Assembly (NCBI GenBank): GCA_036504815.1
Contig: DASXUN010000028.1
Location: forward strand, 1-64,000
Source of the DNA: Gemmatimonadaceae bacterium
GTDB lineage: Bacteria; Gemmatimonadota; Gemmatimonadetes; Gemmatimonadales; Gemmatimonadaceae
Direction of reading: 5' to 3'
DNA: 64,000 nt
Shown here: positions 22,357 to 31,942 of the stretch, in pieces
Layout: each line of letters opens with the position of its first letter
Position numbering within the stretch: position 1 is the stretch's first letter
The notes under the pieces: generated by a model
Databases searched by the model: none
Seen by the model: only the letters and a program-made list of their open reading frames with translations
Told to the model about the DNA's origin: nothing
Translations under genes and position numbers: made by a program

Positions 22357-24546
22357 TCATCCGTCCGCGGTCAGTCTTTCACGCCGGGACACTTCCGTGA
22401 CGCCTTTCACCCGCCGAGCGGCGCGAATGATCTTGTCGAGGTGGACGAGGTTCTCGACCTCGACGAGGGCGGCGCCGGTCACGCGGCCGTCGGTGGACTT
22501 GAGCTCGAGCGTCTTGATGTCGGTGCCGGTGCCGCTGACGGCGGCCGCGAGGTCGGCATAGAGGCCGCGGCGGTCATTCCCCTCGATGTGCAGGCGGATG
22601 ACGAAGCGTTCGCCTTCGCTCTCCTTCCAGTCGATCTCGAGCCGGCGCTCCGGTTCGTGCACGAGGAAGAGGAGGTTCGGGCAGTCGGCGCGGTGAATGC
22701 TGACGCCGCGCCCGCGCGTGACGTAGCCCACCACCTTGTCGCCCGGCACGGGCTGGCAGCACTGCGCATAGCGGACCATCAGGCCGTCGGCGCCCTGCAC
22801 GCGGATGCCGCGCGAGGTGTCCGAGCGCTTCATCCGGTCGAGGAGGCGCTCGAGCGGGCTCGCCTTCACCTGGTGCTGGTCCGGGTGCTCCTCGACGTCG
22901 GGGAAGACGGCCTTCAGGATGTGCGTGATGGTGACGTCGCCCTGCGCGATGGACGCCAGCACGTGGTCGGCATCGCCGAGCTTGAGCACGTCGGCGGCCA
23001 CGGCCAGCTCGTCGTCGGTGAGCTTCGCCATCTTGCGGCGGCGCAGTTCGCGGTCGAGGATCTCGCGCCCGATCTGGCGCGACGCCTTGTGCTCCTCGAC
23101 GCGCAGCCACTGCCGGATGCGATGCCGCGCGCGCCCGGTGCGCACGTGCGCCAGCCAGTCGCGGCTGGGGCGCGCCGTGGGAGAGCGCGAGATCTCCACC
23201 GTCTCGGAATTGCGCAGCTCGCGCGAGAGCGGCACGATGCGCCCGTTGACCTTCGCCCCCTGCACGTGGAGGCCAAGCTCCGAGTGCACGGCAAAGGCGA
23301 AATCGATGGGCGTCGCGCCCTTGGGGAGCTGGATCACGTCCCCCTTCGGCGTGAAGACGAAGATCTCGTCCTGGTACAGGTCGAGCTTGAGGAACTCGAG
23401 GAACTGGTCGGGGGTCTCGGCGTCCAGCTGCAACTCGAGCACCTGGCGGAACCAGTGCAGCGCGCGGTCGAGGTCGTCGCCGTGCCCCTTCTCGCCCTCC
23501 TTGTATCGCCAGTGCGCGGCGATGCCATAGTCCGCCGTGCGATGCATCTCGAGGGTGCGGATCTGGATCTCGAACAGCGTGCCCCGCGGGCCGAAGACCG
23601 TCGTGTGCAGCGACTGGTAGCCGTTGGACTTGGGCTGCGCGATGTAATCCTTGATGCGCTCCTGCAGCGGTGACCAGGCGCCGTGGATGACCCCGAGGGC
23701 GTGGTAGCATTCCGGGACGCTGTCCACGAGCACGCGAATGGCGTAGAGGTCGTAGACGTCGTCGTACGACTTGTCGCCCTTCACCATCTTCTTGTGGATG
23801 GACCAGAGGTGCTTTGGGCGCCCGCTCACTTCGTGGACCACGACGCCGCTGTCCTTGAGGCGCTGCGAGAGCGGGCCGACCATCTCCTGGATGAGCGCCT
23901 CGCGATCGGCGCGCTTCTGCTGGACGAGGCGCGCCAGCGCGCGGTACTCCTCCGGCTCCAGATAGCGGAAGGCCAGGTCCTCGAGTTCGGCCTTCATCGC
24001 GGCCAGGCCGAAGCGGTGCGCGAGCGGCGCATACAGGTCGCGCGTCTCGAGGGCGATGCGGCGGCGCTTCTCCTCGGGGAGATGTTCGAGCGTCCGCATG
24101 TTGTGCAGGCGGTCGGCGAGCTTGATGAGGATGACGCGCGCGTCCTTGGCGATCGAGAGGAGGAGCTTGCGGTAGTTCTCGACCTGCCGCTCCTCGCGCG
24201 ACCCCGTGGGGAGGTGGCCGATCTTCGTGACGCCGTCGACGATCTGGGCGACCTCGCGGCCGAACTCGCGCTCTACGTCCTCGCGCGTCGCGTCGGTGTC
24301 CTCGATGACGTCGTGCACGAGCGCGCTGGCGACGGTCACGGTGTCGAGCTGCAGCTCGGCGAGGATCTTGGCGACCTCGACGCAGTGCGTGACGTAGGGA
24401 TCCCCGTTCCGACGGGTCTGTCCCGCGTGCGCCTTCTCGCTGAAGCGATAGGCGCGCGACAACAGGGCCGCGTCGAGCCGCTCCGGATGGGCGTCGGCGC
24501 TGAGCTCCCACTTGGGGATGATGTCGGTGAGGACGGGAGTGATCAC
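22357..24546 (-). CDS. rel: Bifunctional (p)ppGpp synthetase/hydrolase (RelA/SpoT homologue)
   Basis: Rel makes and degrades the stringent-response alarmone. The 729-residue product has an N-terminal HD hydrolase domain (YVTHCVEVAKILAEL, SALVHDVIEDT), the synthetase domain (SGRPKHLWSIHKKM, NGYQSLHTTVFGP), a TGS domain (DEIFVFTPKGDVIQLPKG), a conserved-cysteine region (RYAQCCQPVPGDKVVGY) and a C-terminal ACT domain. Hydrolase and synthetase motifs both appear intact, so it is probably bifunctional. The start is GTG with no obvious Shine-Dalgarno; no other start precedes the HD domain. It is flanked upstream by a GATT-word leader repeat. Confidence 0.96.
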   Translation of the reverse strand: MITPVLTDIIPKWELSADAHPERLDAALLSRAYRFSEKAHAGQTRRNGDPYVTHCVEVAKILAELQLDTVTVASALVHDVIEDTDATREDVEREFGREVAQIVDGVTKIGHLPTGSREERQVENYRKLLLSIAKDARVILIKLADRLHNMRTLEHLPEEKRRRIALETRDLYAPLAHRFGLAAMKAELEDLAFRYLEPEEYRALARLVQQKRADREALIQEMVGPLSQRLKDSGVVVHEVSGRPKHLWSIHKKMVKGDKSYDDVYDLYAIRVLVDSVPECYHALGVIHGAWSPLQERIKDYIAQPKSNGYQSLHTTVFGPRGTLFEIQIRTLEMHRTADYGIAAHWRYKEGEKGHGDDLDRALHWFRQVLELQLDAETPDQFLEFLKLDLYQDEIFVFTPKGDVIQLPKGATPIDFAFAVHSELGLHVQGAKVNGRIVPLSRELRNSETVEISRSPTARPSRDWLAHVRTGRARHRIRQWLRVEEHKASRQIGREILDRELRRRKMAKLTDDELAVAADVLKLGDADHVLASIAQGDVTITHILKAVFPDVEEHPDQHQVKASPLERLLDRMKRSDTSRGIRVQGADGLMVRYAQCCQPVPGDKVVGYVTRGRGVSIHRADCPNLLFLVHEPERRLEIDWKESEGERFVIRLHIEGNDRRGLYADLAAAVSGTGTDIKTLELKSTDGRVTGAALVEVENLVHLDKIIRAARRVKGVTEVSRRERLTADG

Positions 24547-24668: not shown

Positions 24669-24732
24669 GGCTGGCCTCTCCCCTGAAACTGCCCCCCGGT
24701 GGCGGGGAGTCAAGGGGGCGTGGCGGCGCGCA

Positions 24733-26319
24733 TCAAGGTGCCGGGTAGGCCCAGACGTCACTTCCCCAACCCGATCCGGTCAGGCCTGAAACAAGGATCA
24801 ACCGGCGCCGCAGGACATCGTAATGCAGACCCGGAAGATACCGGGGACCCGGCGAGGTCGCGGCGGTCGGCATCGCCTGCCAGCGCACGCTCGCGTCATC
24901 GGGTCGGCTTCGTACGAAGTCCGAGGTCGTGACGAAGCCATGCAGCGTCATCCCTCCGTACCGGTACAGCGTGCCGGAGACTGGATCGTACGCCATGCCG
25001 CTGCCTCCGCGTGCATCGCTCCCGGTGTTCGGCGGAATCAAGTTCCTGAACGCGTAGGTCCGAAGGTTCAGCACCCAGAGGTCGTCATACATGCCTTCTG
25101 TCGCCCCGAGCCAACGCTGGGTGAGGAACGCGCGCGCACCGGCCGCATCGACAACCACGTTCGTCTGCGCACCGAACCGAGGCTCCGGCACCGCGCCGCT
25201 CGTCGTGATAGCCAGCCACGCGTTGGATCCGTTCCACTCCCACAGGGTGTTCCTGAAGCTGCCCCAACCATAGCCGGCGAACAGCGACAGGCGGCCGCTC
25301 ACGGGGTTCATGAACGCATAGCCTTCGTAGTACTGATCCGAGTTGCCGGTCGCGCCCTCGGCGGTCCACGTGCCGCCCGTCTCGGGAATGCTGTACACCT
25401 GGCCAAGTCCGTCCCAGTAGGTGAGCAGCCGATGGCGCGCCGCATCGTAGATCAGCTTGCGATATTTGCCCATCGGCCAGCCGTTCGCGGTCAGGCGCGT
25501 CCATCTCTGGGTTCCGAGGTCGAAACGCCAGAGCGAGCCGACGGCACCGTCGGGCATTTCCGCCGCGAAGATGGCGTCGCTGGCCGCGGAGTAGGCAGAC
25601 GCCGTAATGGCCGCCGGCACGGCGGATCGCGACGCCAGCAGTCGCCAGAGCGCCGGCACCGTGACGGTCGCGGTTGCCGAGACGCCTTCGCTCGTGACCG
25701 TCATGATGGCTTGTCCCGGCCCGACCGCGGTCGCGACACCTGCCGGACTGACGGTGGCGACCGCCGGAGCAGAAGTCGTCCAGATCACGTCGCGGCCATT
25801 CAGCACCGCACCGAAGCGATCGAGCAGCGTGGCCGTGAAAATCACGGTCGCACCGACGTCCAGTACGGACGCTGTCGGTGCGAGCAGAATTGTCGCCACG
25901 GGTTCGGCGCCAATCCAGCGTGTACAGGCGGAGAACTTGCTGTTGTTCGCGTCACCTCCGGGCGCCGACGTCGCCTTGCGCGACCGTATCTTGACGCCAT
26001 AGGCGACCCCCGGCGTGAGTCCCGTGTACTGGTGCACGGTCTCTGTCGCCGTGGCCTTGTCCACCGTCGGCAGCATGCCTGTGTCACAGCTCACCAGCTG
26101 ATAGCCGTTGGCATCGGCCACCGCGGACCAGGCGACGGTGGCGCTCCCCCCGGCAAGTCGCACCGAGAGGACGGACGGCGCGTCAAGCCGTTCATTCGCG
26201 GCCATTCGGGAACGGGCATCAGCGAGCATTGCAGTCGGGACCGCAGTCGTCGCGTCGCCCGCCGTGCAGCCGGCGAGCAGGCTGCTGCAGGCCATCAGGA
26301 ATCGCAGTGAGTTTCGCAC
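24733..26319 (-). CDS. Large surface lipoprotein with Ig-like and Kelch-like regions
   Basis: The 528-residue product has a lipoprotein signal with LLAGC, a fibronectin-like segment (about residues 45-135: VAWSAVADANGYQLVSCDTG), a BIG2-type Ig-like domain (about 140-225: ATVSPAGVATAVGPGQAIMT) and a C-terminal region of propeller-like repeats (LWEWNGSNAWLAI, LWVLNLRTYAFRNL, DVWAYPAP) resembling Kelch blades. It is probably an outer-membrane protein; no enzyme motif is visible. The GTG at 26319 is chosen because AAGGAG lies 8 bases upstream and the signal peptide follows; a longer frame starts at 26352. It is 106 bases downstream of the membrane-anchored regulator, which may control it. Confidence 0.82.
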   Translation of the reverse strand: MRNSLRFLMACSSLLAGCTAGDATTAVPTAMLADARSRMAANERLDAPSVLSVRLAGGSATVAWSAVADANGYQLVSCDTGMLPTVDKATATETVHQYTGLTPGVAYGVKIRSRKATSAPGGDANNSKFSACTRWIGAEPVATILLAPTASVLDVGATVIFTATLLDRFGAVLNGRDVIWTTSAPAVATVSPAGVATAVGPGQAIMTVTSEGVSATATVTVPALWRLLASRSAVPAAITASAYSAASDAIFAAEMPDGAVGSLWRFDLGTQRWTRLTANGWPMGKYRKLIYDAARHRLLTYWDGLGQVYSIPETGGTWTAEGATGNSDQYYEGYAFMNPVSGRLSLFAGYGWGSFRNTLWEWNGSNAWLAITTSGAVPEPRFGAQTNVVVDAAGARAFLTQRWLGATEGMYDDLWVLNLRTYAFRNLIPPNTGSDARGGSGMAYDPVSGTLYRYGGMTLHGFVTTSDFVRSRPDDASVRWQAMPTAATSPGPRYLPGLHYDVLRRRLILVSGLTGSGWGSDVWAYPAP

Positions 26320-26425
26320 GGACCGTCTCCTTGGAGGCGTGCCAGGCGGCACAGGTGGCCGGACACGGTCCCAAGGTCGTCGGAGGAGTCAGTCCGCCGT
26401 CAACGGGCGTGAACTGACGTCGTTT

Positions 26426-29400
26426 TCACGGCTCGCGCGACACGTGCACCTCGACGGCGGCGATGCCGATGGGGGACTCGACGCGATATGGCGGCACGGG
26501 GCCTCGGTCCTTCCAGCAGCGCACGATCTTCCAATACGCTGCTCCCTCGAGGGCGGCCGCGCGCAGGGTATCGAGCGGCAGGTCGAGCAGGTCGTCGCCA
26601 TTGCGCCACCGGGGCTCGCCGCACGTCCAGTTGGTGCTGGAGAAGATGAAGGCCGCGCGCGGCTCGGCGCCGAATGCCCAGAGCAGGAGGTAGCGCCCCG
26701 GCAGCAAGGGCGCCACTCGGCGCACCGGCACCTCGATGCGCCCCGAATCGAGCGGTGTCACGAGCGAGCGCACGGACGCGGTGTCGGTCTCCCGACGCTC
26801 CCACGTGGCGGTCGCGCCAAGGAAGACCGTCGCCGTTGTCCAGAGACTGGAATAGAGCAGGCTCACGCGCCCGACCAGCGGTTCGCCGGGGCGGACGCGC
26901 ACGACCGGAACTGGACCGGAAAGCAGTTGACCGTTGATGACGCCGGAGCGCAGCCTCAGCTTCGAACCGCCGATCCACTCGTGTATCCATCGCACGCTCG
27001 TCAGGCCCTTTGCCTCGAAGTTCAGTTCCGAGGACTGGCCTTCCTTGCGACCCATACTCAATGAGTCGAAGGTCGCTTCGCCATCCACCGTCTCGGCGGT
27101 CAGCCGGCCACCGGGATTTTGCCCCGGCGCGCCACGCACGGATACTCGAAGCCCGGTGACGCGGAGTCGGCGACCGAGCCGATCGTGCACGCCGATCACC
27201 GGCGCGCGATCCATCACCTCTTCGCCGTTACTCGGGATCGGCGCCTGCACCATCACCAGCTTGGCCGGCCGGGTCAGGTACCATGCGCCGATGACGAGGA
27301 GGGCGAGGACGGCGGCGAAGGCCCAGTGGGTCCGATGGTCGCGCCCGCGGCGCGGAAGCGTGCGCCGCACCGCCGTGCGGAGGGCCAGCGTCCGCTCATC
27401 GGACAGCCCGGGCGGGAGCAGATCCACGGTGGGCACGCCCACCGCCGGCACCTCGCCGCGGCGCACCCACGCCCGCAGCACGCCGGCCACCTCGTCGTCC
27501 GACCCGGCCTGCACCAGCAACGCGATGATACGACGCATCTCGACGACGCCCACGCCCTGCTCCGCGGCGAGCGCGAGGGCCAGTCCAAGCCGCGCCGAGG
27601 CCAGCGAGGGCGCGTCGCTCTGCGCCACGATGAGGTCGGTGATCTCATCGTGCGCCGTCGCCCACCCTCCATCGGGCATGCGGCGCGCGTATCCGCGCAC
27701 CTCGAGCGCCAGCAGCACCGACTCCACATTCGTCCGCTCCGCCGATACGGCTGCAGCCACAACCTCAGTCGACGGTGCGGCGCCAACGCAGAGGACCCGC
27801 AGCACCGCACGTGCCTCCACCGAGAGCTGGGCGACGCGCATGCGCGCCGCCTCGCTTGCGTCGAGCGCGGCCAGCAGCGCCGGAACGTTCGGCGCCGCCC
27901 AGTGCTCGGCGTCGATCATCAACAACTGTTTCTCCACCACGGCGTGCAGCAACTGCAGCACATGGAAGGGCACACCGCCTGCCGCGTCACGCAGCGCCGC
28001 CGCGAACGCGTCCCACCAGGCGGCATCGCCAGCACCGCCGAGCGACTGCAGCATCGCGTCCACCTGCGCCGTCGTCAGCGGCGGCAGCGACACGCGCTCC
28101 ACGCCCGTTTCGCCCGCCCAGGGTTCACGCCCCGCGGTGAGCAGCAGCACCCGCGCGTCGGCCGCCAGCCGCCCCATCGCGACCAGCAGCAGGTTCAGCG
28201 ATGCGCGATCCGCCCAGTGCGCGTCGTCGATCGCCAGCACCACGGACGCCTCGTGCGTGACCGCACCGAGGAGGTCCGCGAGCGCGACGGTGCGGCGACG
28301 CATCGCCTCGTCGCCCGTGGCGGTGTCGGCGTGCGCGGCGAAGACCGTCGAGGCGTCGGGTGCCATCGCCACCAGCGCCGCCATGGAACCGGGCGCCACC
28401 GCGATGCTCCCCGGCAGGCGGGCGAGTGCCGTGACGACGCTGGCGCCGAGCGCGAATGGCACGTCGCGCTCGTCACGGCGCGCACCGCACCGCACGACGC
28501 GCGCCCCGGCCGCCTGCAGGCGCGCGCACGATTCCTCGAGCAGCCGGGTCTTCCCCGTTCCCGCCAGCGCCTCCACGTGCAGATGCTGCCGCCGGCCGCG
28601 CTTCACGATCCCCCAAGCCGCCAGCACGCGCGCCAGTTGCGTCTCGCGCCCCACGAACTCGGGGGCCGACAGGGCCCCGCCGCGCTCCGGCGACGGACGG
28701 GCGACGTCGCGAACCCGCTGGAAGAGCTGCGCGGTGGCGGGTTCAGGCGGCCGGCCCTCGTTGCGCAACAGCTCCGCGAGGCGCTCGGCCTCGAGGCGCG
28801 CCGACGCGACCCCCTCGGCGGCGATCTCCGCCTCGATCAGCAGGCGCCACGACCGCTCGCGCGACGCGTCCATGTCACGCAGGCGACGCGCGTGGGGAAG
28901 CGCCGCCGCGGCGCGACCGGCCGCGAGGTCAGCGCGCGCGACGGTCTCGAGCAAGCGCGCGAAGAGCGCCGCCAGGTGCCGACGCTCGATATCGCACCAC
29001 ATCTCGAACTCGGCGCCGCCCGGCACCGCGAGATCGGGGATGAAGTCGCCGCGATACAACGCAATAGCCGCCGCGAAATCACCGCGATCCGCCGCCGCGA
29101 CGAACTCATCGCGGTCGAAGGTCAGCGCCGCCCGCAAGATGACGAGGTCGCCATCCGAGACCAGCGCATCGTCCGGAAGGAGCCGCCGCAGCACCAGCAG
29201 GGCCTGCCGCAGGTTGGCGCGTGCCCGCTCCGGTTCGAGGTCGGACCAGAGCAGGTCGATCAAGTGCGGCCGGGTGGCCGAGTGCACGGACTGTGAACGA
29301 AGGTAGGCCAGCAGGGCGAGCGGCTTGCCCGGCCCCAGCCGGAGCACGCCCTCGGCGGAGACCAGTTCGAGGCGTCCCAGCACATGCAGCGACAGTCGCT

Positions 29401-29551
29401 GAGCGCCGGCTTCAGGCAGGCCGTCGGTCGGCACAGGAGGGAGCGAGTTCACGATGCGCGCAAAGTCTTCACGCCCGAGAATCTGTGGGTGCTCCCCGCA
29501 TCCCGCGAGCGCGTGGCGGCGGCACGCGAATGGTGAACGAACATGCGACAT
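26426..29551 (-). CDS. Membrane-anchored SARP-type AAA ATPase transcriptional regulator
   Basis: The 1041-residue protein has an N-terminal winged-helix plus BTAD segment as in SARP activators (about residues 50-285: LSLHVLGRLELVSAEG, HLIDLLWSDLEPERARANLR), then an AAA/STAND ATPase with Walker A ALAGTGKTR (about 330) and Walker B SVVLAIDDAHWAD (about 440). Near residue 740-760 there is one transmembrane helix (FAAVLALLVIGAWYL), followed by about 280 residues predicted extracytoplasmic. This order implies DNA binding inside and sensing outside the inner membrane. I know of no characterised protein with exactly this layout. The ATG at 29551 is used; a GTG at 29452 just before the SARP domain is an alternative. 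Confidence 0.85.
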   Translation of the reverse strand: MSHVRSPFACRRHALAGCGEHPQILGREDFARIVNSLPPVPTDGLPEAGAQRLSLHVLGRLELVSAEGVLRLGPGKPLALLAYLRSQSVHSATRPHLIDLLWSDLEPERARANLRQALLVLRRLLPDDALVSDGDLVILRAALTFDRDEFVAAADRGDFAAAIALYRGDFIPDLAVPGGAEFEMWCDIERRHLAALFARLLETVARADLAAGRAAAALPHARRLRDMDASRERSWRLLIEAEIAAEGVASARLEAERLAELLRNEGRPPEPATAQLFQRVRDVARPSPERGGALSAPEFVGRETQLARVLAAWGIVKRGRRQHLHVEALAGTGKTRLLEESCARLQAAGARVVRCGARRDERDVPFALGASVVTALARLPGSIAVAPGSMAALVAMAPDASTVFAAHADTATGDEAMRRRTVALADLLGAVTHEASVVLAIDDAHWADRASLNLLLVAMGRLAADARVLLLTAGREPWAGETGVERVSLPPLTTAQVDAMLQSLGGAGDAAWWDAFAAALRDAAGGVPFHVLQLLHAVVEKQLLMIDAEHWAAPNVPALLAALDASEAARMRVAQLSVEARAVLRVLCVGAAPSTEVVAAAVSAERTNVESVLLALEVRGYARRMPDGGWATAHDEITDLIVAQSDAPSLASARLGLALALAAEQGVGVVEMRRIIALLVQAGSDDEVAGVLRAWVRRGEVPAVGVPTVDLLPPGLSDERTLALRTAVRRTLPRRGRDHRTHWAFAAVLALLVIGAWYLTRPAKLVMVQAPIPSNGEEVMDRAPVIGVHDRLGRRLRVTGLRVSVRGAPGQNPGGRLTAETVDGEATFDSLSMGRKEGQSSELNFEAKGLTSVRWIHEWIGGSKLRLRSGVINGQLLSGPVPVVRVRPGEPLVGRVSLLYSSLWTTATVFLGATATWERRETDTASVRSLVTPLDSGRIEVPVRRVAPLLPGRYLLLWAFGAEPRAAFIFSSTNWTCGEPRWRNGDDLLDLPLDTLRAAALEGAAYWKIVRCWKDRGPVPPYRVESPIGIAAVEVHVSREP

Positions 29552-29616
29552 CGTTCGCGCCGCGCGTCAGCCCCGCGTCAATCGACCATCGTAGGCATTG
29601 CCGCACTTCTCGACCA

Positions 29617-29664: not shown

Positions 29665-30357
29665 TCAAAGAAACCCCATCTCCGCAAACGACAAGTATCT
29701 CCCCCGCCCGATGATCACGTGATCGTGCACCGGGATGTCGAGCAGTCGCCCGGCCGCCACCAGCTGTTCAGTCACGCTCCGGTCGTCCGCGCTCGGCGTC
29801 GGGTCGCCGCTCGGGTGGTTGTGCACGAGGATGATGGCCGCGGCCCGTTCGGCGATGGCCTCGCGAAAGACCTCGCGGGGATGGACGAGCGAGGAATTAA
29901 GTATGCCGCGCGTCACCAGCACATCGCGCCCCAGCCGGTGCTGGGCGTCGAGGATGGCGACGTGGAACTCCTCGACCGGCAGGTCCTCCAGTGTGGGCGC
30001 GAAGGAGCGCCAGACGTCGCGCGGCGCGCGCAGTGGACGTGCCTCGCCCGGCTCCTCGCTCGCCAGCCGCCGTCCGAGTTCCAGCGCGGCGTGGATGGCC
30101 ACGGCGCGCGTCGCGCCAAGCCCCGGCACCTCCGCCAGCGCGGCGAGCGGGCGATCGCCGAGGCGCCGGAGCGATCCATCGGCGCGGCTGAGCACGTCGT
30201 GGGCGAGAGTCAGCGCCGGTCGGCCGCGCGTTCCCGCGCCGATGACGAGGGCAAGCAACTCAGGCGCCGACAGCGCGCGGGCGCCGAGTGTACGGAGGCG
30301 CTCACGCGGCCGGTCGGGCGGCAGGAGCCCTTGAGGTGTGATGGCGAGAACCGTCAT
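29665..30357 (-). CDS. radC: RadC-family JAB-domain protein
   Basis: The 230-residue product has an N-terminal helix-hairpin-helix region (LAALAEVPGLGATRAVAIHAAL) and a C-terminal MPN/JAB metalloprotease-like fold with HNHPSGDPTPSADD, the RadC signature. Despite the name, a DNA-repair role is not established; function is unknown. The ATG at 30357 (MTVLAITPQG) is preferred over an upstream in-frame TTG. Confidence 0.93.
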   Translation of the reverse strand: MTVLAITPQGLLPPDRPRERLRTLGARALSAPELLALVIGAGTRGRPALTLAHDVLSRADGSLRRLGDRPLAALAEVPGLGATRAVAIHAALELGRRLASEEPGEARPLRAPRDVWRSFAPTLEDLPVEEFHVAILDAQHRLGRDVLVTRGILNSSLVHPREVFREAIAERAAAIILVHNHPSGDPTPSADDRSVTEQLVAAGRLLDIPVHDHVIIGRGRYLSFAEMGFL

Positions 30358-30393
30358 GCTCAACCGTATCAAGGGTCGCGCAGCGATCCGTCA

Positions 30394-30454: not shown

Positions 30455-31813
30455 TTACGGGTCCTTGGTCGTCGACGCGGGCCGGGCCGCGCTCACCGCC
30501 TCACGCGAAGCAGCACTGCGCTCGGCCTGGGCCTGCGACGCCGCCGAGGCCGCGGCGGCCGACGAGGCGGATGCGGCGGCTGACCCCGTCGAGGATGCGT
30601 TGTTGCCGTACTGCGGCGAACCCGTGCCGCCGGCCGTTCCGGTGGTCCAGCCGCCGGAGTTGGCGCGACGCGCCCCCGAAACGCCTTCAGTGGGCACCGA
30701 CCGGACGATCCACGGCACGAAGGCCTCGGACGCCGGGGTGACGTTGCCGCGCTGCAGGCCTGTCGGATCGACCGGCACGCCGACGGCGATCGTCCCCTGC
30801 GGTCCAACACCAGTCGTGCGAACGCCGCGCGCGAACGACTTGAAGCCTTCTTCGGATTCGCCGCCGCTCGGCCGATACGGGCGGTAGCCCTCTTCGGGGC
30901 GCATCGACGGGTTCACCGGTGTGGCGACCACGCCGCGGCGCAGCGGCACCGCCTGCTCCTCGACGATGGACTTCGACGGCACCTTCCGGGCCGGCAGCTG
31001 CAGCTTCTCGGTCGTGATGGTGTCGCCGCCGCCCGGCGTTCCGGTGGGCGTCGAGCCAGGCGAGTCGTAATAGTGGCGGATCGGGCAGTAGAACATGCCC
31101 GTGGCGAAGAAGTAGTCAGCCGGGATGTTGTACATGCCCGTCGGACAGTAGAACGCAATGCTCTGGCCCGCGTAGCGGTTGTACGCGTTGTTGTGATCGG
31201 TCACTTCGAGCACGTCCACGACGATGTCGTCGACCGTGCTCCCCAGCGGCATGATGGCATCCACGATGTCCGTCAGGAACGCGTCAGGGGCAATCACGGT
31301 GCTCGAGATCGCACGGAATCCCAAGGCCTGCTGCAGCCAATGTTGCGCGGCGTCCGGCGAGCCCACCTGCCGGAGCGGACGGCGCGACGCGACGAGGAGG
31401 AGCGTGCGCGTCGGGGCCAGGGACGACGCCCCCCATCCCGCCTCCGTCCCCGTCCAGCCCGTCGTGTAGTAGTACGAGATGATACGACCCTGATTGTCGA
31501 CCATCCACATCGGCCGGGCGTACGGCATGGCATAGTTCCAGCCGTAATACCGATACTGCGAGCGGAACGGCCGCGAGAGGAGATATTCGCCGGGTTCCAC
31601 CGGCTTGGCCGCCTGCGATGTGGTACGGGGGAAGAGCTGCTGCACGCCCTGTCCCGGAATGACTTCGAACACCGCCACATACGCCGGCTGGTCCACGAAG
31701 AAGCTCGGTTCGCTCGTTCCGTGGCGCAGCGACGCCTCGAGCGGCCGCGCCACCTGCGCGGCGGCTCCGACGGTGCACGCGGCCAGCAGGGCCGCCAACC
31801 TCAGGACTCGCAT
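30455..31813 (-). CDS. Secreted DUF4384-like protein with low-complexity C-terminus
   Basis: The 452-residue product has a signal peptide (MRVLRLAALLAACTVGAAAQ) and a beta-rich domain whose YVAVFEVIPGQGVQQLFP matches the pattern of DUF4384-type domains. A tyrosine-rich middle (SQYRYYGWNYAMPYARPMW) and cysteines at FYCPTGMY and FYCPIRHYY follow. The last about 60 residues are almost only Ala, Ser, Gln and Arg. Function is unknown; likely cell-surface or periplasmic. The ATG at 31813 has AGGG 5 bases upstream and opens the signal peptide. Confidence 0.78.
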   Translation of the reverse strand: MRVLRLAALLAACTVGAAAQVARPLEASLRHGTSEPSFFVDQPAYVAVFEVIPGQGVQQLFPRTTSQAAKPVEPGEYLLSRPFRSQYRYYGWNYAMPYARPMWMVDNQGRIISYYYTTGWTGTEAGWGASSLAPTRTLLLVASRRPLRQVGSPDAAQHWLQQALGFRAISSTVIAPDAFLTDIVDAIMPLGSTVDDIVVDVLEVTDHNNAYNRYAGQSIAFYCPTGMYNIPADYFFATGMFYCPIRHYYDSPGSTPTGTPGGGDTITTEKLQLPARKVPSKSIVEEQAVPLRRGVVATPVNPSMRPEEGYRPYRPSGGESEEGFKSFARGVRTTGVGPQGTIAVGVPVDPTGLQRGNVTPASEAFVPWIVRSVPTEGVSGARRANSGGWTTGTAGGTGSPQYGNNASSTGSAAASASSAAAASAASQAQAERSAASREAVSAARPASTTKDP

Positions 31814-31942
31814 GAACCCTCCCGCTCTGGACGGGTGCGTCAGGCCTCTAACTGAAACGTTGGGGGAGGCGACCGGCGATGCAATAGGGGACCGCACCAA
31901 ACCGTCGCTCTCGACGACGGGCACCCGTCCCCACGCATCGTC

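Follow-up and report, generated by a model that had tools for sequence, protein, structure and literature searches.

A predicted membrane-tethered SARP–STAND regulator with an extracytoplasmic domain in Gemmatimonadota

Large SARPs are described as cytoplasmic proteins, mostly regulators of antibiotic clusters in Streptomyces. An open reading frame in a Gemmatimonadaceae genome (3.5 Mb, 31 contigs) raises the question of whether a regulator of this kind can be tied to the membrane and carry a domain outside it. The frame lies in the 64,000-nucleotide stretch of DNA analysed here, referred to as the window, with radC (29665–30372) upstream and a lipoprotein gene, then relA (22357–24546), downstream. 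A sequence-only reading had proposed that SARP-type DNA-binding, BTAD and AAA ATPase domains are followed in this protein by a single transmembrane helix and about 280 outer residues, and that the lipoprotein is a target or partner. It had suggested topology prediction, structure prediction of the outer residues, and a survey of related genomes for the same architecture and for a conserved neighbour. The proposed architecture holds: a SARP/BTAD module, a STAND NTPase, a helical region, a transmembrane helix and about 281 C-terminal residues are predicted in that order (Table 1; residues are counted from the first ATG).

Table 1. Positions in the window of the regulator gene, its predicted domains, the predicted operators and the lipoprotein gene
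Feature	Position	Strand	Remarks
Membrane-tethered SARP–STAND regulator gene (predicted)	26426..29551	-	1041 aa from ATG 29551; probable start GTG 29452, ~1008 aa
SARP module, winged helix and BTAD, residues 53–283	28703..29395	-	BTAD E 1e-12; Foldseek AfsR 8k60_I TMt 0.73, EmbR
STAND NTPase domain, residues 298–480	28112..28660	-	AAA_16; Walker A 328–336, Walker B 437–448
Helical region between NTPase and membrane, residues 494–731	27359..28072	-	AlphaFold2 model
Transmembrane helix (predicted), residues 742–760	27272..27328	-	hydrophobic in 26/26, basic N-flank 25/26; lone helix 741–759 in model
Ig-like linker domain, residues ~768–862	26967..27250	-	resembles repeated Ig-like units in giant ORFs; poorly modelled
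Distal beta-sandwich domain, residues ~863–1041	26429..26966	-	signature SxTNWxxGxPxWGDGNDL; Cys977/Cys1012
SARP-type operator (predicted) TTGACGCGGGGCTGACG, two half-sites, 11-bp period	29565..29581	-	upstream of regulator; proposed autoregulatory site
Second operator (predicted) TTGACGGCGGACTGACT	26387..26403	-	gap upstream of lipoprotein
Lipoprotein, lipobox LAGC; fn3, Big_2 and Kelch-type repeats	24733..26320	-	probable target gene

All three inner domains named in the sequence-only reading are recovered by profile searches. Pfam places the BTAD at residues 158–281 (E 1e-12) and AAA_16 at residues 298–470 (E 6e-19). The winged helix (residues ~53–150) falls under the Pfam threshold in the regulator itself, and Trans_reg_C is matched in 20 of 26 full-length relatives, which share 27–77% identity and make up the alignment used below (A1). 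A sequence search of the PDB with the single protein found AfsR at E 0.0085; the family profile found AfsR (8k60) at E 1e-10 and EmbR (2fez) at E 7e-9. An AlphaFold2 model, computed from a 20-sequence alignment (mean pLDDT 77.5, pTM 0.38), is laid out as SARP (53–283), NTPase (303–480), helices (494–731), a lone helix (741–759) and beta domains (785–1037). Foldseek matches its SARP module to EmbR and to the SARP domain of AfsR from a transcription complex (8k60_I, TMt 0.73), and its NTPase to Apaf-1, CED-4 and MalT. These last three are STAND proteins, and the Walker residues G331, G333, K334, D442 and D443 are invariant or near-invariant across the 26 relatives. No TPR family match was found in the regulator with Pfam; its C-terminus consists instead of the membrane helix and the beta domains.

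The membrane segment itself, HWAFAAVLALLVIGAWYLT (residues 742–760), is the top hydropathy window of the protein, with 281 residues C-terminal of it. Its Kyte–Doolittle (KD) value of 1.71 is suggestive rather than decisive, since another helix of the same protein peaks at 1.61. A hydrophobic segment is found at the same position in all 26 relatives (KD 1.3–2.9). The 15 residues N-terminal of it have a net charge of 0 to +7, positive in 25 relatives and neutral in one, and the C-flank is mostly less positively charged than the N-flank. By the positive-inside rule these flanks predict an N-in, C-out orientation, so that hydropathy and flank charge bear out the topology that had been proposed. 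In the model the lone helix, whose pLDDT is low, separates the helical and beta regions. Cysteines C-terminal of the helix number exactly zero (eight members) or two (18 members), against one to nine N-terminal of it. The outer pair is found at three alternative places, the 977/1012 type, a tail type at ~1013/1028, and 897/955 in a single relative (L089). Such a distribution, none or two at varied pair positions, points to an exported disulfide domain. In a comparison set of SARP/STAND-like proteins, none of about 25 from other phyla shows a strong peak of hydropathy C-terminal of its NTPase; both Gemmatimonadota proteins in the set do have one. That the protein is soluble and the stretch a buried helix is extremely improbable: its hydropathy is modest (1.71 here, 1.32 in the nearest ortholog), no greater than that of certain helices buried elsewhere in these proteins, but the position of the segment, its flank charge and the cysteine pattern across 26 relatives argue against burial, as does the lone helix of the model. 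Membrane tethering with an extracytoplasmic C-terminus is thus a well-supported prediction. Transmembrane transcription regulators have been defined as proteins with a DNA-binding domain and at least one transmembrane segment (PMC10269533), and both are predicted here.

Structure prediction was successful for one portion of the outer residues. The core strands of the distal domain reach a pLDDT of ~90, whilst the Ig-like part is poorly modelled; the latter, the first 100 residues of the outer part, matches repeated Ig-like units within multi-kiloresidue ORFs of the phylum. The distal domain has no Pfam match even at E values up to 10. A fold search with the outer domain returned generic beta-sandwich matches only (best Z 6.7), the tied best being ester-bond adhesin repeats, the ILRUN FW domain and the Wzt carbohydrate-binding domain, and because these matches are generic and tied no ligand class can be assigned. 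An FW-domain identity, considered on account of shared tryptophans, was rejected as no sequence match supports it.

Searched with the real sequence, the C-terminal part is present in 33 of 148 genomes of the family, and its strong matches lie nearly all inside ORFs of ~1000–1100 aa, fused to a SARP–STAND half. A phylum-wide search, for which the query was a consensus hand-typed from the alignment, gave a result in agreement with this. Among the matches listed, every named record with a full-length relative belongs to Gemmatimonadota or Gemmatimonadaceae. The distal outer domain was not found in 40 genomes of other phyla, where the two weak matches were to the Ig-like part only. The survey for the same architecture was productive, with 26 full-length relatives having the segment in place, and the predicted membrane-tethered SARP–STAND architecture is a trait of the Gemmatimonadota lineage.

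A sister class of ~1320–1540 aa (for example L043 and L051, with a paralog, L041, in the regulator's own genome) has the same inner half and, in most members, a hydrophobic segment in the same place. Predicted operators of the type described below precede several of its genes. Outside, however, it has a PD40 beta-propeller and an Ig-like module (Big_2 in some members) where the regulator has its TNW/WGDGND domain. Retention of the inner half with a different exterior suggests that the outer module has been exchanged. Some genes of the family and the sister class are split into two or three frames (L039:8166–11193, L085:262–3331, L087:8885–11854 and L040:8080–12110), being either assembly errors or decaying copies. 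At two further loci (L092:10762–12303 and L100:11381–13039) a shorter SARP-like ORF of 513–552 aa adjoins a family member on the opposite strand, which suggests paired SARP regulators in that genus.

Alignment of the regions upstream of four close orthologs revealed one block conserved in all of them, TTGACG-N5-CTGACG, an 11-bp direct repeat. Its end lies only ~15 nt from ATG 29551, leaving little room for a promoter, so that this start is doubtful. GTG 29452 is kept in all four orthologs at a constant 112–113 nt past the operator, and is probably the true start, giving a protein of ~1008 aa. AfsR sites consist of direct repeats at a spacing of 11 or 22 bp, and the site overlaps the −35 region (PMC10936776); the predicted operator likewise shows the 11-bp direct repeats near −35 of the large SARPs.

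The motif YTGACGNNNNNYTGAC is found at three sites in the window against 0.12 expected: before the regulator, before the lipoprotein and inside ORF 30455–31924. The last of these, CTGACGCGTTCCTGACG (31271–31287, minus strand), lies in a frame that is situated between radC and secA and weakly resembles DUF4384, and is probably a coding chance. In the 3.5-Mb genome TTGACGNNNNNYTGACK has three exact matches, two of them at the regulator locus, and the reversed-pattern control has none, although this count is partly fitted because the last letter of the pattern was broadened to K so as to include the lipoprotein site, which ends in T. Each of three orthologous genomes has a single match, in front of its ortholog. 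In 596 kb of SARP loci, 17 half-site pairs have the operator spacing against 2.3 expected, and each of the other eight spacings in the range 3 to 11 is seen one to six times. As these loci were picked for their SARP genes, the fitting comparison is with the remaining spacings and with the other genes at those loci. Fourteen of the 17 sites are directly upstream of a SARP gene, the beta-propeller class included. TGAC pairs at 11 bp occur in eight of 25 upstream regions of members, where no other spacing exceeds two, against five of 251 controls, three of those five belonging to the lipoprotein (one) and another family member (two); about two-thirds of the members are without an exact TGAC/TGAC pair at this distance. 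It is very unlikely that the block is simply a strong −35 element. TTGAC does look like a −35 box and stands at promoter distance, but a second half-site follows at exactly 11 bp, the enrichment is specific to that spacing (17 sites versus one to six), one genomic site consists of four tandem 11-bp repeats, and the block is rare in the genome, unlike a general promoter.

That tandem site is the third genomic match (G000:C21:591321–591358; L220:1141–1501). It reads TGATGCC, TGATGCC, TGACGCC, TGACGCC, lies ~76 bp ahead of a 94-aa cysteine-rich secreted ORF, and is the sole match with a triple or longer repeat among the four genomes searched. It is probably the target of a SARP, which may be a different one from the regulator. 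A repeat, ATGACGGGGTTTTGACG, stands 60 bp upstream of an ORF of 213 aa whose signal resembles a lipobox (L093:4825–5543), ~5 kb from a family member. The regulator's own genome also encodes a SARP-like protein without a membrane segment (L042:5007–8165, G000:C3), and the same repeat type, ATGACGCGGCTGTGACG, is found 21 bp before its ORF, suggesting that the operator type extends beyond the membrane-bound members.

The lipoprotein ORF runs from 24733 to 26352, and its signal-peptide start, GTG 26320, leaves a gap of ~106 bases to the regulator, in agreement with the distance originally given. Because the 11-bp repeat upstream of it is common to the regulator's own promoter, the lipoprotein gene is likely to be a target of the regulator where it is present. 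The lipoprotein is found beside the orthologs of G000 and G001, at 62–64% identity, and the G001 gene has a one-mismatch copy of the operator, TTCACGGCGGACTGACG, at the same place within a 13-bp identical block. In G005 and G007 relA comes immediately after the regulator ortholog, and a lipoprotein homolog was not found anywhere else in either genome. Of the two roles put forward for the lipoprotein, that of target is thus favoured by the shared operator, whereas that of conserved or obligate partner has to be abandoned, and the search for a conserved neighbour ended negatively. Lipoproteins near family members generally were also considered, but seven of 47 immediate neighbours against 11 of 178 farther genes, with two of the seven coming from one ortholog pair, is too weak an enrichment. 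relA was rejected as a target since no 11-bp repeat precedes it in G005 or G007. A conserved CTTGAC...CAG.TT block without the 11-bp repeat does stand before relA in the related genomes (L034:9200–9240, L035:14340–14375, and window 24690–24715, minus strand), and probably represents the promoter region of that gene.

The SARP domain of AfsR is kept inhibited by the protein's NOD and TPR parts until ATP binds (PMC10936776). The protein described here is probably an autoregulated one-component membrane transcription activator, AfsR-like inside and with a lineage-specific sensor outside, which is released by an external change. Its predicted domains, topology, operator and autoregulatory position are supported by the comparisons above. 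The cytoplasmic SARP winged helix and BTAD would bind YTGACG direct repeats that have an 11-bp spacing and lie at promoter distance, whilst the STAND NTPase and helical region would hold the SARP module off, as in soluble AfsR. The single helix would span the cytoplasmic membrane and lead to an Ig-like stalk and to a beta-sandwich for which a disulfide is predicted. A change outside, in a ligand or in the state of the envelope, would act through the membrane helix to lift the STAND brake; the protein would then assemble on the repeats and activate both the gene that encodes it and that of the downstream lipoprotein. In this scheme we infer the disulfide, activation rather than repression, the ATP switch, the transmembrane coupling and the external signal. 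The one-protein sensor with an ATPase switch that had been suggested at the outset is a reasonable inference, given that the 26 relatives show conservation of the STAND motifs. Tentatively, it may be that an outside ligand shifts the nucleotide state of the inner Apaf-1/NLR-like NTPase, that a still-anchored assembly forms on promoter DNA, and that the exchangeable sensors make up a Gemmatimonadota receptor family.

Two other accounts of signalling compete with this one. The membrane form could be a precursor from which an external cue, through juxtamembrane proteolysis, frees the SARP–STAND half to diffuse to promoters. Linker 734–743 is disordered in the AlphaFold2 model, and several membrane-bound bacterial regulators are reported to act through regulated proteolysis (review PMC7593790), but the juxtamembrane alignment (A1) shows no conserved cleavage motif and such release is unlikely. 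Equally, the outer domain might merely anchor or localise a protein whose STAND domain senses a cytoplasmic signal. This too is improbable, for the distal domain has a strict signature of its own (TNW, WGDGND) and alternative cysteine pairs, and the sister class has a different outer module, the beta-propeller, as swapped input domains would show, even though the invariant columns of A1 lie mostly in the inner half and the STAND regulators AfsR and MalT are known to sense inside (PMC10936776, on AfsR).

An activator sensing from outside would combine features of known systems. With AfsR and the large SARPs of Streptomyces the regulator shares the SARP module, a STAND-type nucleotide-binding domain, the helical region and the predicted 11-bp operator; AfsR, however, ends in a cytoplasmic TPR sensor, and the regulator in a transmembrane helix and the outer Ig-like and beta-sandwich domains. 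With the transmembrane transcription regulators CadC, ToxR and TcpP (survey PMC10269533) it has in common an inner winged helix, a single pass, a periplasmic C-terminus and a one-component design. A SARP with a large ATP-binding half is also found in the SARP-LAL proteins PimR and SanG. CadC, ToxR and TcpP are not known to have a STAND NTPase between their DNA-binding and membrane parts. The SARP-LAL proteins are described without a membrane segment (PMC10972967), whereas one is predicted in the regulator, and its match to a kinase/cyclase-fusion over the NTPase is weak and sub-threshold. It appears closer to the large SARPs of the AfsR type with a STAND NTPase than to SARP-LAL. The remark that known SARP-LAL regulators are soluble was apt as to the solubility of large SARPs, which fits PMC10972967, but probably not as to the class. 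The only parts named in that review are DBD, BTAD, NB-ARC, TPR and AAA/LAL, and a membrane is mentioned nowhere in it. Transmembrane transcription regulators are common, with 50,302 across 9,673 genomes according to the main text of PMC10269533, which names neither BTAD nor Gemmatimonadota. The literature searched, that main text included, yielded no membrane-tethered SARP combined with a STAND NTPase; such proteins may be listed in the supplements of the survey without comment. Large SARPs and transmembrane transcription regulators were already known, and what seems new is their combination with a STAND NTPase.

In this poorly studied phylum, an AfsR-like SARP–STAND core appears to be coupled to the outside by a membrane helix and to carry changeable outer modules. 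The predicted operators would provide ready-made reporters for identifying both signal and regulon. If signalling were shown, the regulator would offer a simple example of a STAND NTPase that serves, within one protein, as a transmembrane receptor.
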